This document shows, one piece after another, positions 14,651-63,468 of a stretch of 64,000 bases of DNA (position 1 is its first letter; the number at the start of each line of letters is the position of its first letter). The notes below the pieces were generated by a model. It was not told where the DNA came from. It ran no database searches and saw only the letters and a program-made list of their open reading frames with translations. This stretch comes from Rhodopseudomonas pseudopalustris (GTDB lineage Bacteria > Pseudomonadota > Alphaproteobacteria > Rhizobiales > Xanthobacteraceae), in assembly GCF_900110435.1 (NCBI RefSeq), contig NZ_FODT01000001.1:496001-560000 (forward strand), written 5' to 3'. The position numbers and the translations under genes are program-made.

Positions 14651-14978
14651 GCCAAGCTGCGAGCGACCCGCGAAAGGCGTTCGCTCAGGTCGCAGAACAC
14701 GTCATCGCTGTTCAACCGGCATGATTCCCGACACTTCGGACCGGGATGATTGTCGACAGTTTTTGGTCCGCGTGTTCCGGTGCGTAGCACAGCCCGTCTC
14801 GGGGCGAAGCGCAGCGGCGGTTGCGCCGCCCACTCCAAGACCACACCAAGAACAGAAGCACGGCGCCCGCGCCGGCCGCGGCAGGGCTCCCTCTCCCGCT
14901 TGCGGGGGAGGGCTGGGGTGGGGGAAGCCGCGGGCAATGCGCTCGCGTGTCACCGAGAACGCAGATCGCGCGCGCAGC
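14651..14978. other. Intergenic region with one C-rich/G-rich palindrome
   Basis: A 328-bp stretch between convergent genes. Besides the palindrome at 14887-14924, no gene or RNA was recognised. It would be expected to contain terminators for both genes, but no T-tailed hairpin was found. Confidence 0.4.
14887..14924 (+). repeat. REP-like palindrome (single copy)
   Basis: CCCTCTCCCGC-TT-GCGGGGGAGGG followed by the tail CTGGGGTGGGGG. This is the family of which fifteen arms occur in this window; here it is a single arm without its mirror partner. Confidence 0.85.
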
Positions 14979-22537: not shown

Positions 22538-22670
22538 ACCTCTCCCGCTTGCGGGGAAGGTCGGATCGCGCCAGCGATCCGGGTGGGGGAAAGCATCTCC
22601 GAACAACGCCGGCTCACTGCTCGGGTCGCCCTCTCCCCAGCCCTCTCCCGCGAGCGGGAGAGGGGCGCGC
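22538..22670. repeat. REP-like palindrome pair (plus then minus orientation)
   Basis: The first arm, CTCTCCCGC-TT-GCGGGGAAGG, continues with a GGATCGC...GCGATCC inverted extension and a GGGTGGGGG tail. The second arm (22627-22670) is its mirror type, beginning CCCTCTCCCCAGCCCTCTCCCGC. It fills most of the gap between regR and mmcB, which converge on it. Confidence 0.8.
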
Positions 22671-45871: not shown

Positions 45872-46020
45872 CGCCACCACCCCAACCCTCCCCCGCAGGC
45901 GGGAGAGGGAGTCCGGCCGGATGCGCGGCAGGCTTCATCGGCTGGAAGCGATCCACCACAATTTCCCCAAGCACAACGCGCCCCCTCTCCCGCTTGCGGG
46001 GGAGGGCTGGGGTGGGGGAA
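45872..46020. repeat. REP-like palindrome pair (minus then plus)
   Basis: Left arm 45872-45911 in mirror form (CCACCCCAACCCTCCCCCGC...GCGGGAGAGGGA), right arm 45980-46020 in direct form (CCCTCTCCCGC-TT-GCGGGGGAGGG), 68 bp apart. It lies between the convergent ku and map genes. Confidence 0.85.
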
Positions 46021-48420: not shown

Positions 48421-48599
48421 GCGCCCTCACCCCAGCCCTCTCCGCAAGCGGGAGAGGGAGCGCGCTGTGTGGGCTGCGACGCTGTGCGTTCTTTCTGATC
48501 TGGTAAGGGCACTGCATCTGCGGTGCGTTCGGGCACTTCGTTGCCCCGGCCGCGGCCAAACTCCCTCTCCCGCTTGCGGGGGAGGGTTGGGGTGGGGGC
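48421..48599. repeat. REP-like palindrome pair (minus then plus)
   Basis: Left arm 48421-48460 (CCCTCACCCCAGCCCTCTCCGC, GCGGGAGAGGGAGCGCGCTG) and right arm 48561-48599 (CTCCCTCTCCCGC-TT-GCGGGGGAGGG, then TTGGGGTGGGGG), about 100 bp apart. The pair sits in the divergent region upstream of the MscS gene and the antiporter gene. Confidence 0.85.
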
Positions 48600-57072: not shown

Positions 57073-57208
57073 GCCCCCACCCCACCCTCCCCCGCAAGCG
57101 GGAGAGGGAGCGCGCTGTGCGTGTTGCTAATCGGGAGGATGAACGGGATCGCCTCGACGATCGCGGCAGAACTCCCTCTCCCGCTTGCGGGGGAGGGTGG
57201 GGTGGGGG
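57073..57208. repeat. REP-like palindrome pair (minus then plus)
   Basis: Left arm 57073-57112 (CCCCACCCCACCCTCCCCCGC...GGAGAGGGAGCGCG), right arm 57171-57208 (CTCCCTCTCCCGC-TT-GCGGGGGAGGG, then TGGGGTGGGGG), 58 bp between. It lies between the convergent flavoprotein gene and pheT. Confidence 0.85.
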
Positions 57209-57254: not shown

Positions 57255-59669
57255 CTATCCGCGCAGCACGCCGCCGGTTTTCTTCGTCACCTCGGCGACG
57301 ATCTTCGCACCGACCGCGTCGATCTCCTGATCGGTCATGGTCTTGTCGCGCGGCTGCAGCGTCACTGCGATCGCCACCGACTTCTTGTCGGGATCGACGC
57401 CCTTGCCTTCGTAGACGTCGAACACGACGACCGAGCTGATCAGCTTCTTGTCGATGCTCTGCGCGGCGCGGACGATGTCGGCGGCCTGAACCTTGCGGTC
57501 GACGATGAAGGCGAAGTCGCGCGACACCGGCTGGAATGCGGACAGCTCCAGCGACGGCTTGGCGCGGGTCGGCCGCTGCTTGGCGGCGGGGATGTTGTCG
57601 AGGATCACTTCGAACCCGACCAGCGGGCCGTCGGCGTGCAACTGCTCGAGCACGCGCGGATGCAGTTCGCCGAAGTAACCAAGCACGTTCTGCGGCCCGA
57701 TCTGGATCGCGCCGGAGCGGCCGGGATGCAGCCAGGCCGGCAGCGCCTTGCCGGTCGCGATCTGCAGGCCCGCCATCGGCGCGCCGGCGGCGGCGAGCAC
57801 CGCGAAGGCATCGGCCTTGGCGTCGAGCGCGGAGGCCGGCGCCGAGCCGGACCAGTGCCGGCCGAGCCCGTTCGATGAGGCGACGCCGCGACGCACGCCG
57901 CTCGCCGCGACGAACTGATCCTGCGGCCGGTCGCCCTTGAAGATCTGCCCGACCTCGAACAGCGCCAGATCAGGCGTGCCGCGATCGGCGTTGGCCTGCG
58001 CTGCGGCGACGAGGCCCGGCAGCAGGCTCGGCCGCATGTCGGACAGATCCGACGCGATCGGATTGGCCAGCGCCAGTTCAGGCTGGCCGCCGCCGAAGGC
58101 TTCGGCGCTGGGCTTGGCGATGAACGACCAGGTCACCGCCTCGGTCAGGCCGCGCGCGGCCAGCGCACGCTTGGCGCGGCGGGTGCGGGTCTGGATCGGC
58201 GTCAGCACCGGCTTACGCGGCGCGTCGCCGCGCTCGAACGGCGTCATCGGCACCTTGTCGACGCCGACGATGCGGACGATTTCCTCGACGATGTCGGCCT
58301 TGCCGTGCACGTCGCTGCGCCACGACGGCGCCGCCACCTTCACCACCGCGCCCTGGCCTGCGACCATGAAGCCGAGATGGGTGAGGATGCGCCGCGCCTC
58401 GGCGAGCGGCACGTCGATGCCGGCGAGCCGCTTCACCTCGGACAGCGGGAAGTCGATGATGCGATCTTCGCCGAACGTCCTGCCGACGACCACCATCTCG
58501 GACGGCGTGCCGCCGCAGAATTCGATCACCAGCCGGGTCGCGAGATCCAGCCCCGGCACCATGAAGGCCGGATCGACGCCGCGCTCGAAGCGATAGCGCG
58601 CGTCGGTGTTGATGCCGAGCTTGCGGCCCGATTGCGCGATGTTGATCTCGTTCCACAGCGCCGATTCGATCAGCACGTCGGTGGTCTCGGCCGAGCAGCC
58701 GGAGGCTTCGCCGCCCATGATGCCGGCGAGCGATTCGACGCCGTGATCATCGGCGATCACGCAGACGCCCGGGTCGAGATTGTAGTTACGCCCGTCGAGC
58801 GCCAGCAGCGTCTCGCCGTCCCTGGCGCGGCGCACCACGAGATTGCCCTTCACCTTGGCGGCGTCGAACACGTGCAGCGGCCGCGACCGGTCGAAGGTCA
58901 GGAAGTTGGTGATATCGACCAGCGCGTTGATCGGGCGCAGCCCGATCGCGGTCAGTCGCTTTTGCAGCCATTCCGGCGACGGGCCGTTCTTGACGCCGCG
59001 CACCAGCCGCAGCGCGAAGCCGGGGCAGAGCTTGTCGTCCTCGACGCTCACTTGCACCGGGCAGGGGAATTCGCCCTTGATCGGCTTGATGCCGGACTCT
59101 TTCAGCTTGCCCATATCGGCGGCGGCGAGATCGCGCGCGATGCCGTGGACGCCGGCGCAATCCTGCCGGTTCGGCGTCAGATTGATGTCGAGCACCGGAT
59201 CGCCGAGCCCGGCCCACTCCGCATAGGCCTTGCCGATCGGCGCATCCGCCGGCAATTCCATGATGCCGTCATGATCCTCGGAGATCTGCAACTCGGCGGC
59301 CGAGCACAACATGCCGCGGCTCTCGACGCCGCGGATATTGCCGACGCCGAGCGTGATGTTCTTGCCCGGAATGAAGGTGCCGGGCGGCGAGAACACCGTG
59401 ATCAGCCCGGCCCGCGCATTCGGTGCGCCGCACACCACCTGCACGGGCGCGCCGCCATCGCCGGTGTCGACGCTGCAGACCTGCAGCTTGTCGGCGTTGG
59501 GATGCTTCTCGGCGCTGAGCACCCGCGCAATCGTAAACGGCGCCAGGGCCTTGGCCTTGTCGGTGATGTCCTCGACCTCGAGCCCGATCATGGTGAGCTT
59601 GTCGGCGAGCGCGGTGAGCGTCTCGTCGGTGTCGAGATGATCCTTCAGCCAGGAGAGGGTGAGTTTCAT
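57255..59669 (-). CDS. pheT: Phenylalanyl-tRNA synthetase beta subunit
   Basis: Beta subunit of the alpha2-beta2 enzyme that charges tRNA-Phe; 804 residues. Seen in order: [20 protein letters not shown]; a tRNA-binding B1/OB part ([40 protein letters not shown]); the B3/B4 editing region ([20 protein letters not shown]); a B5 part ([20 protein letters not shown]); and the C-terminal anticodon-type domain ending [23 protein letters not shown] 59669 is the right start by homology, though the frame is open upstream. Normally it directly follows pheS; here 869 bp with a DUF559 gene and repeats separate them. Confidence 0.97.
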
Positions 59670-59733: not shown

Positions 59734-59927
59734 CGCCCTCACCCCAACCCTCTCCCGCAAGCGGGCGAGGGGGCGCGTCGTGCCGGATGGAGGGGCCGCG
59801 TGTCATGCTGTTAGTCCGCATCGCCCGCCGCAGGGCGCTGCTTGGAATCGATCTGTTCAGGGCGCTGCTTCGCCGCGCGCTTGGCGCGCTCCCTCTCCCG
59901 CTTGCGGGGGAGGGTTGGGGTGGGGGC
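59734..59927. repeat. REP-like palindrome pair (minus then plus), downstream side of DUF559 gene
   Basis: Left arm 59734-59775 (CCCTCACCCCAACCCTCTCCCGC, GCGGGCGAGGGGGCGCG), right arm 59889-59927 (CTCCCTCTCCCGC-TT-GCGGGGGAGGG, then TTGGGGTGGGGGCAC). The right arm lies inside the 3' end of the DUF559 reading frame; the stop codon (59811) lies between the arms. Confidence 0.87.
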
Positions 59928-60302
59928 ACTTGCCGCAAGCTCAGCAGCGATGCTCTGCAACACCCCGTCGCGATTACTCATCACCTCGGCATTGCTGAAC
60001 CGAATAATCCGAAATCCGCGCGCCTCGATCGCCGCCGTGCGCGACGCATCAGCGGGTTCGCCGGCGTCGGAAAAATGCTGGCCGCCGTCGAGCTCGACGA
60101 CGAGCTTGACCGAATGGCACGCGAAATCCGCGATGAAAGGTCCGATCGGCACCTGGCGGCGAAACGAGAAACCGTTGAGCTGCTTGTCGCGCAGCGCCGA
60201 CCACATCAGCCGCTCGGCGTCGGTCGATGTCTTGCGCAACTCGCGCGCATGGCGGCGCAGGCTCGGAGATACTTTCCAGCTCGGCTGCTTCGGATCGTCC
60301 AT
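59811..60302 (-). CDS. DUF559 endonuclease-domain protein between pheS and pheT
   Basis: 163-residue protein with the Vsr/MTES-related DUF559 nuclease core: ARELRKTSTDAERLMWSALR, FSFRRQVPIGPFIADFACHS, VKLVVELDGGQHFSDAG and FRIIRFSNAEVMSNRDGVLQ. The Asp (IADF), Glu (VELDGGQH) and Gln-x-His pattern are those of the PD-(D/E)xK superfamily. The C-terminal 40 residues (TPTLPRKRERERAKRAAKQR) are a translated palindrome repeat arm, not family sequence. ATG 60302 follows ACGGAGCTTGCG. One repeat pair overlaps the 3' end and another begins about 20 bp upstream of the start. Same strand as pheS-pheT, so it is probably co-transcribed. Confidence 0.85.
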   Translation of the reverse strand: MDDPKQPSWKVSPSLRRHARELRKTSTDAERLMWSALRDKQLNGFSFRRQVPIGPFIADFACHSVKLVVELDGGQHFSDAGEPADASRTAAIEARGFRIIRFSNAEVMSNRDGVLQSIAAELAASAPTPTLPRKRERERAKRAAKQRPEQIDSKQRPAAGDAD

Positions 60303-60322
60303 CGCAAGCTCCGTGCCCGTGT

Positions 60323-60502
60323 CGCCCTCACCCCAACCCTCTCCCGCAGGCGGGAGAGGGAGCGCGTCGTGCGGCGATGAGAGGGCTTTCATCATCTCAA
60401 CGACAAATCTTATTCAACGAACGGCGCCTGCACTTAAGCGAATAGTCGCCACAGCCGCTGCCTGCCCCCTCTCCCGCTTGCGGGAGAGGGCCGGGGTGAG
60501 GG
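60323..60502. repeat. REP-like palindrome pair (minus then plus), upstream side of DUF559 gene
   Basis: Left arm 60323-60364 (GCCCTCACCCCAACCCTCTCCCGC, GCGGGAGAGGGAGCGCG), right arm 60465-60502 (CCCCTCTCCCGC-TT-GCGGGAGAGGGCCGGGGTGAGGG), 100 bp apart. The left arm begins 21 bp upstream of the DUF559 start codon; the right arm ends 37 bp from the pheS stop. Confidence 0.87.
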
Positions 60503-60538
60503 CACTTGCCCCACGCACAGCGCCCGAATGCGCCAAAC

Positions 60539-61621
60539 TCACGAACTCAATCCCCCCGCCAGCGACGGGATATCCAGCGGCTTGAAGCCGTAGTGAGTGA
60601 GCCAGCGCGAATCGGCTTCGAACAATTGCCGCAGATCGCTCATGCCGTATTTCAGCATGGCGATGCGGTCGATGCCCATGCCCCAGGCGAAGCCCTGATA
60701 CACTTCCGGATCGATGCCGCAGGCGGTCAGCACGTTGGGGTGGACCATGCCGCAGCCGAGAATCTCCAGCCAGTCCTCGCCCTCGCCGAAGCGGATCTCA
60801 CCATTGCCGCGGCGGCACTGGATGTCGACTTCCAGCGACGGCTCGGTGAACGGGAAGAACGACGGCCGGAACCGCATGTTGACGTTGTCGACCTCGAAGA
60901 ACGCCTTGCAGAACTCCGCGAGGATCCATTTCAGATGGCCGAGATGGCTGCCCTTGTCGATGACGAGGCCTTCGACCTGATGGAATTGCGGCGTATGCGT
61001 CGCGTCCGAGTCGATCCGATAGGTGCGGCCCGGACAGATCACCCGGATCGGCGGCTTCTGCGACAACATCGTGCGCACCTGCACCGGCGAGGTGTGGGTC
61101 CGCAGCAGCATCCGCGAGCCGTCTTGCTTCGGATTGAAGAAGAAGGTGTCGTGCATCTCGCGGGCCGGATGGCCCTCGGGGAAGTTCAGCCGGGTGAAGT
61201 TGTTGTCGTCGGTCTCGATGTCCGGACCTTCGGCGATCGCAAAGCCCATATCGGCGAAGATCGCGGTGAGTTCGTCCCAGACCTGGCTGAGCGGATGAAT
61301 CCGGCCCTGCTCCGCCAGCGGCTCACGCAGCGGCAGCGTGACGTCGATGGTTTCGGCGGCGAGCTTGGCGTCGAGCGCTGCGGCCTTGAGCAGATCGCGC
61401 CGCGCGGTCAGCGCCTGCGTGACCGCCTCCTTGGCGAGGTTGATCGCCGCGCCTTCGGTCTTGCGCTGCTCGGGGTCCATCTTGCCGAGCGTCGCGAGCA
61501 ACGCCGAGATCGAGCCCTTCTTGCCGAGCGCGCCGACACGCACCGCTTCGAGCGCGGCTTCGTCGGACGAAGCGGCGATATCGGCGAGGATCTGGGTTTG
61601 CAGGTTTTCGAGATTGGACAT
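60539..61621 (-). CDS. pheS: Phenylalanyl-tRNA synthetase alpha subunit
   Basis: Catalytic subunit of phenylalanyl-tRNA synthetase, 360 residues, class II fold. An N-terminal coiled coil (about 1-95) precedes the class II motifs: motif 1 near [20 protein letters not shown], motif 2 with [12 protein letters not shown] and [20 protein letters not shown], and motif 3 at [15 protein letters not shown]. Phe-pocket residues are in [18 protein letters not shown] 61621 ([16 protein letters not shown]) has GAGGGGA about nine bases upstream. Length is standard. The gap to rplT on the same strand is 143 bp and is largely filled by a GTCAT-type element. Confidence 0.98.
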
Positions 61622-63341: not shown

Positions 63342-63468
63342 TTCCCCCACCCCAACCCTCCCCCGCAAGCGGGAGAGGGAGCGCGCCGCGCTTGGTGAGA
63401 AGCACTGCCTTTCCCCGCTTGCTGCAGACCCCCTCTCCCGCGTGCGGGAGAGGGCTGGGGTGAGGGCG
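63342..63468. repeat. REP-like palindrome pair (minus then plus)
   Basis: Left arm 63342-63382 (CCCCCACCCCAACCCTCCCCCGC, GCGGGAGAGGGAGCGCG), right arm 63428-63468 (CCCCCTCTCCCGC-GT-GCGGGAGAGGGCTGGGGTGAGGG), 45 bp apart. Adjoins repeat copy E and the infC terminator. Confidence 0.85.

Follow-up and report, generated by a model that had tools for sequence, protein, structure and literature searches.

A small nuclease gene of the DUF559 family lies between pheS and pheT in Rhodopseudomonas pseudopalustris, enclosed on both sides by inverted copies of a short palindromic repeat. The cassette, like its frame, is real and not peculiar to this locus. There is good support for regarding it as a mobile unit whose ends are the palindromes, and in the simplest reading the DUF559 protein would drive its spread. 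The DUF559 gene and its framing units probably constitute a single selfish mobile cassette, with the units as its ends and with a mechanism that we infer. Such mobility agrees with the alternative alleles found at its sites, with gene-less relatives and with one comparison of copy numbers. The recurring package of gene and hairpins, together with its gene-less copies, suggests an undescribed small mobile element that parallels REP-RAYT. With it, a second and unrelated family of nucleases would have a defined candidate substrate and DUF559 a role, and the different interruptions of operons such as pheST and glyQS in sister genomes would be explained.

The locus between pheS and pheT and its enzyme

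The three genes of the locus lie on the reverse strand of the window, by which we mean the whole 64-kb stretch of DNA that was analysed. The upstream neighbour is pheS (60539–61621; PF01409 and PF02912) and the downstream neighbour is pheT (57255–59669; PF03483, PF17759, PF03147, PF01588 and PF03484), whose ORF extends to 59729 with a likely ATG at 59669. From the end of pheS at 60539 and this probable start, 869 bp separate the two genes, the spacing given in an earlier note on this DNA. The DUF559 gene occupies 59811–60302, with its likely ATG at 60302 (PF04480, E 1.6e-36, residues 47–153 of 194). Its mechanical ORF runs from 59811 to 60395, and the part upstream of 60302 is translated palindrome. 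The Pfam domain stops at residue 153 of the 194 in this ORF, and the 41 residues beyond it start near translated repeat; the earlier note had described the last 40 residues as read from a palindrome arm.

Repeat units stand on both sides of the gene. The upstream (5′) unit (60324–60373, reverse strand) combines a palindrome at 60337–60360 with a G-rich tail that, as read on the gene strand, faces the gene. It is the inverted partner (88%) of the downstream (3′) unit (59878–59927, forward strand), which consists of a palindrome at 59891–59914 and the tail TTGGGGTGGGGG, likewise facing the gene. An outer unit on the pheS side (60464–60503, forward strand) forms a head-to-head doublet with 60324–60363, the arms being 90% complementary; its counterpart on the pheT side (59735–59777, reverse strand) forms another with 59885–59927 (91%). 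The inner units point their G-rich tails toward the DUF559 gene, and the outer units turn each side into a doublet. CCCTCTCCCGCnnGCGGGAGAGGG palindromes with 0 or 1 mismatch lie at 59748–59771, 59891–59914, 60337–60360 and 60467–60490. The earlier note had described a head-to-head palindrome pair on each side of the gene and a start codon 21 bp from one of them. These coordinates bear it out, with the ATG at 60302 about 21 bp from the unit that starts at 60324.

The palindrome is frequent in the window. Allowing up to 3 mismatches, the CCCTCTCCCGCnnGCGGGAGAGGG palindrome occurs 13 times in the 64 kb, against 0 in 100 shuffles. The doublets that flank the DUF559 gene resemble the window's four other doublets (45886–46006, 48436–48586, 57085–57197, which is just past pheT, and 63356–63454), and lone palindromes of the same type lie on the forward strand at 14889–14912 and 22641–22664. 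The whole genome (5.27 Mb) holds 87 window-type palindromes at up to 3 mismatches, so that the 13 between 14889 and 63454 form one cluster; further clusters are seen elsewhere in the genome among the matches listed.

The order of elements within a unit is a C-rich arm, a short loop, a G-rich arm, 2–3 bases or a second hairpin, and a G-rich tail. The tail resembles the second arm of the hairpin and is usually directed toward the gene. Across the genus, all 40 distinct segments with a second hairpin fold below the mean of their shuffles (for 37, no more than 4% of the shuffles reach so low a value), and the stems differ in sequence between segments while the fold is kept. When four units were folded as DNA, the palindromes folded, with weak z scores of −2.0, −1.2 and −1.2 for the units that have no second hairpin and −5.2 for the fourth.

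The protein resembles small nucleases. Twelve positions are invariant among 53 relatives, including E61, D90, E101 and D103, and H107 is kept in at least 90%; we take E61, D90, E101, D103 and H107 to correspond to the EDxHD motif. A structure model of the protein is confident over most of the domain. Among solved structures it comes nearest to NGO0050 (Z 16.6), followed by the homing endonuclease I-Bth0305I (Z 11.9) and then Vsr (Z 9.8 and 9.5), with the PD-(D/E)xK transposition protein TnsA as a distant fold match (Z 6.5); absence of a family from this comparison list does not exclude it. The profile search found only NGO0050 (E 4.6e-38) and I-Bth0305I (E 6.4e-4), and not Vsr. Both the catalytic fold and the active-site residues of the EDxHD homing endonucleases are thus present. 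Judged from the model, the DUF559 protein is probably a small single-domain nuclease of the Vsr and EDxHD-homing-endonuclease group, a shared fold being no proof of function. DUF559 is not known to be a transposase.

Framing of DUF559 genes in Rhodopseudomonas

The R. pseudopalustris genome (G000) contains four PF04480 matches. Three are short genes, located between pheS and pheT, glyQ and glyS, and pdhC and lpdA (neighbours other than pheS and pheT were named by eye from translations). Each stands within a frame of inverted palindromes, and the palindrome variant differs from one gene to the next. The fourth is a 447-residue frame with no palindrome frame. Sixteen Rhodopseudomonas genomes together gave 88 PF04480 matches, of which 61 short and 11 long-type genes entered the comparison; the other 16, set aside, were weak or partial or lay in long frames. 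To score framing, the 250 upstream and 350 downstream bases of the domain were compared for an inverted repeat between them.

By this measure, 58 of the 61 short DUF559 genes have a two-sided inverted repeat scoring at least 25. The exceptions are L051, where the left unit is still present, L061 and L062. None of the 11 long-type genes is framed (best score 11), nor is any of 30 GNAT genes from the same genomes (best score 13), and only 1 of 2,560 gene-sized windows in 400 kb of the related genome G008 reaches 20. The earlier note had asked whether DUF559 genes lie closer to these palindromes than other genes do; on these counts they do, by a wide margin, and the opposite outcome, no greater proximity than for random genes, is not what the controls give. 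Within the genus, clustering by flanks places the layout in 11 site groups; one of them, siteK, lies at a contig end and probably corresponds to ugpB/ugpA.

Three smaller observations belong here. The sole control window in G008 to score at least 20 (L232:14200–14900) holds two facing inverted elements that by eye resemble cobalamin riboswitches. A long DUF559 protein (frame of about 400–450 residues; L004, L063–L072) also occurs in the genus; with no frame at any of the 11 loci examined, it seems to form a family apart. At the gltD site, the diverged copies L061 and L062 are without a frame and the related copy L058 is framed, as would be expected of decaying elements.

The frames have a polarity. 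At the 58 genus loci with full flanks, a motif of four G-runs stands on the coding strand upstream of the gene in 48 and its complement downstream in 49, against 12 and 16 for the reverse polarity; it occurs at 0 of 30 GNAT loci and 0 of 11 long-type DUF559 loci. These are motif counts only, and the formation of a G-quadruplex at the four G-runs would be speculation. The polarity bears on a reading without mobility, in which a Vsr-like repair gene would be insulated within operons by palindromes that serve as terminators or as mRNA-stabilising hairpins. Cassettes do lie at several sites between same-strand, same-direction genes (named by eye). Caulobacter VsrA, a DUF559 protein described as Vsr-like, is reported to be connected with a solitary cytosine methyltransferase and is tied to DNA damage when that methyltransferase is missing, in the accessible part of a paper that there makes no mention of palindromes or transposition (PMC12907096). 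Inverted copies with one polarity are nonetheless unexpected of ordinary terminators, as are gene-less copies of near-constant length with a shared core and several alleles per site (see next section). Because the flanks are inverted copies with polarity, we set the plain-terminator reading aside, and we consider a host function of this kind very improbable.

Variation between sites and copies without the gene

Comparison of the same sites among the 16 genomes supports the preferred reading, a mobile cassette that ends in its palindromes. The gap between pheS and pheT holds a cassette in 14 of them, including one (G001) with an unrelated DUF559. Comparing this spacing in relatives, as the earlier note had proposed, yields an empty site in G003, where the two genes overlap by ATGA, and a different ORF in G005 (L180; 208 residues, no such palindrome). 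The gap between pdhC and lpdA is more varied still, with a cassette in 5 genomes, a lone full unit in 4, a single palindrome in 2, a gap of 14–15 bp in 2 and another ORF in 3 (L206, L211 and L213; 126–227 residues, without such palindromes). Both gaps look like insertion hotspots, since cassette-free genomes carry another single ORF there. Two unrelated cassettes occupy the glyQ/glyS gap; 5 of 8 genomes with one cassette keep a trace resembling the other, and the reverse holds for 2 of 5. A Fic-like gene (by eye) lies directly upstream of glyS in G001 and G003 (L195 and L197), in place of glyQ and the cassette.

Cassettes at different sites can be related. The copies at dnaN/recF nest beside those at pdhC/lpdA in the protein tree (support 91/84) and have the same palindrome, which we read as a sign of spread between sites. 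The DUF559 proteins otherwise group by site, so most inheritance within the genus looks vertical. In three pairs of sister lineages, chosen for comparison after the tree was seen, the nearest repeat is that of the sister in 5 of 6 cases. A Mantel test of repeat against protein was not significant for the 12 lineages of the genus (r 0.06, p 0.37); the wide set of 102 loci gave r 0.33 (p 0.002), a value confounded by host relatedness. No target-site duplication was recognisable in the filled and empty pairs, which differ in their flanks or by a whole palindrome, and in the G001/G003 pair at pheS/pheT additional sequence lies beside the cassette.

These alleles also speak to a reading in which the palindromes came first, as an independent REP family, and offered safe, cuttable landing sites to an invading homing-type DUF559 gene. 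Leaving DUF559-like proteins aside, the closest relative of solved structure is a homing endonuclease, and some related genomes have a lone unit or a single palindrome where others hold a cassette or a gene-less element; such lone-palindrome alleles could be either ancestral or derived. Against it, sister cassettes at different sites have the same or related ends in the 5 of 6 comparisons above. Furthermore, the palindromes behave as the ends of an element rather than as a split target, because both are inverted copies with tails mostly toward the gene. We consider invasion of older palindromes unlikely and favour palindromes that belong to the cassette.

The same ends occur without the gene. 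Repeat type D forms inverted pairs at a near-constant 119–126 bp, against 450 for the cassette. A gene-less element of 140–147 bp was found in 22 copies (at least two of which are one locus in two genomes) that have the cassette's ends, a shared core and differing 20-base flanks; no piece of the DUF559 gene is recognisable in the core. Where G006 and G011 hold the whole 144-bp gene-less element, G000 has exactly one palindrome (L386), with flanks 87–94% identical. This pair (C) is the only clean filled/unfilled comparison, pairs A, B, D and E having unlike flanks on at least one side.

Copy number gives a mixed picture. Where its DUF559 is present (13 genomes), the type-A repeat, which is that of the window, numbers 34–140 copies; in the three genomes that lack this gene it numbers 25, 3 and 0 (p 0.0018 in a one-sided rank test). 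These genomes do not count as independent, since two of the three low ones look closely related; their pheS stretches are 97.4% identical and both genomes are about 4.1 Mb. Type-D copy number is unrelated to its DUF559 (p 0.19), with 73, 45, 17, 12 and 9 copies in genomes that have the gene and 32, 29, 26, 25, 19, 14, 13, 6, 4, 1 and 0 in those that do not. The proposal that DUF559 spreads the palindromes, made in the earlier note, would fit the type-A counts and finds no support in type D or in the genus Mantel test.

The type-D counts are what one would look for if some other enzyme, a transposase or the replication machinery, moved the palindromes and DUF559 were a passenger or guard. Gene-less elements outnumber cassettes in G008, with 16 type-D pairs readable among the matches listed against one type-D cassette, and type-D copies persist in genomes without a type-D DUF559. 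Against this reading, a search for Y1 transposases (PF01797, E ≤ 0.001), the one transposase family covered, gave no match in 10 of the 16 genomes, including G000 and G008, which carry the palindromes all the same, and a RAYT as mobiliser was set aside for the genomes with no PF01797 match. The seven Y1 loci of the genus (L238–L244, one of them under the Pfam cut-off) have frame scores of 19–33 and a GTAG beside the stem in 7 of 7; they show an apparent REP-RAYT layout by the same measurement, so the DUF559 frame is a different repeat. Finally, 864 kb of sequence, partly chosen for its gene-less elements, contains three neighbouring inward pairs 200–3,000 bp apart. One of these is the DUF559 pair (423 bp) and the others span 2.4 and 2.9 kb, the latter across pheS. 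We regard a passenger role for DUF559 as quite improbable, less credible than the invasion of older palindromes, and retain DUF559 as the likelier driver of its own cassette.

Relation to known systems and breadth beyond the genus

The cassette is most readily compared with REP-RAYT systems. As in those, a small nuclease gene lies inside inverted short palindromes that are also dispersed as singles and doublets, these dispersed copies being non-autonomous, and has gene-less relatives. Unlike in those, the framed gene encodes PF04480, a PD-(D/E)xK, Vsr-like protein, and not a Y1 transposase (PF01797), and the DUF559 units read by eye have no GTAG beside their stems. The claim of a REP-DUF559 cassette distinct from REP-RAYT, advanced in the earlier note, is strongly supported by the framing counts and by a genome with no Y1 match. 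REP palindromes are widespread among bacteria. Of two REP super-families, only the GTAG kind is reported with a dedicated transposase, and the CGTC REPs of alphaproteobacteria, including R. palustris, are reported without one, in the accessible part of PMC3733652. The window palindromes likewise are short and alphaproteobacterial, and a CGTC is present a few bases past the palindrome. Their stems are longer than those of the CGTC REPs, GC-rich and start with CC, whereas the same part of PMC3733652 describes stems of 8–9 bp with AT in the first two positions.

Other systems share single features. The DUF559 protein resembles the EDxHD homing endonuclease I-Bth0305I in fold and profile, and homing endonucleases of this kind are described as selfish genes in what was available of PMC3943268. 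I-Bth0305I has added DNA-binding regions, according to that partial text, and its solved chain is named as a mobile intron protein; the DUF559 protein here is by comparison an almost bare catalytic domain, encoded between genes and with palindromic ends. With Vsr, the very-short-patch repair endonuclease that nicks T:G mismatches and partners a cytosine methyltransferase, it shares the fold alone, and it differs in having several copies per genome, inverted-repeat frames and varying sites. The gene-less copies resemble bacterial MITEs in their length of 140–147 bp, inverted ends and shared core, and differ in that their ends match those of a DUF559 cassette. Terminal inverted repeats, the mark of an insertion sequence, are present, and DUF559 is the sole framed gene seen in the element. 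A repeated, recombining genomic segment with a DUF559 gene is also reported from Legionella; unlike the cassette here, it holds a transposase as well, in the portion of PMC12308824 that could be consulted. A literature search that reached few subscription papers found no link between DUF559 and palindromes; of the 14 papers it found to name DUF559, none deals with REP palindromes in its title or the start of its abstract, and the accessible parts of PMC12907096, PMC12308824, PMC3733652, PMC5082802 and PMC3943268 contain no description of this system.

How such a cassette might move can be outlined. The DUF559 nuclease would nick or cut a palindrome that has been extruded into a hairpin or cruciform. 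The break would then be repaired by the host or replicated through, and in this process the cassette, or a gene-less element that shares its ends, would be copied into either another palindrome or a new intergenic site. Homing by repair is our preferred guess for the copying route. Deletion between matching arms could account for the lone units and single palindromes, and any reading of a given site as gain or as loss would be conjectural.

Framed DUF559 genes extend beyond Rhodopseudomonas. PF04480 occurs in 54 of 144 genomes in a sample of the Alphaproteobacteria. Among the 67 loci of this class sample with full flanks, 34 score at least 20 with their own flanks, compared with 16 of 670 pairings of flanks from different loci. 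An order and phylum sample gave 19 of 46 loci at this score (11 of 26 and 8 of 20), 7 of its 12 same-order loci falling below it. In named genomes the fraction was 49 of 75, from the best 80 of 547 matches, 75 of which had enough flank; one locus in this set (L291) duplicates a genus locus. Framed loci among these best 80 of 547 come from Nitrospira, Binatia, Rokubacteria, Desulfobacterales, Dehalococcoidia and Alcanivorax. Depending on the sample, 35–59% of DUF559 loci outside the genus score under 20. Polarity is also weaker there, with upstream G against C in 31 versus 17 of the 67 class-sample loci, 16 versus 10 of 46 in the order and phylum sample, and 47 versus 20 of 75 among the best 80 of 547 named-genome matches.

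It is tempting to go further and propose that DUF559 cassettes are a categorically new, phylum-spanning minimal mobile element, in which a bare Vsr/EDxHD-type nuclease of about 110 residues acts on ends made of a hairpin and a G-rich tail, homes to palindromes through host repair and needs no transposase, and which is the engine of a substantial fraction of CCCTCTCCC-type palindromes where RAYTs are absent from the bacteria. We hold this wider proposal only tentatively, as a serious possibility that we would stop short of calling probable.

Relatives of the window's DUF559 domain are found on plasmids. A phage origin was considered and rejected, with a relative in only 2 of 50,697 phage records. 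Forty-five plasmid records contain one, and the four stretches scored gave frame scores of 20 (Deinococcus), 24 (Azospirillum), 102 (Sinorhizobium) and 13 (a cyanobacterium). On pSymB of Sinorhizobium meliloti, the DUF559 gene (L374:1800–2500) has an inverted frame of 114 bases and adjoins an ISRm16 transposase gene.
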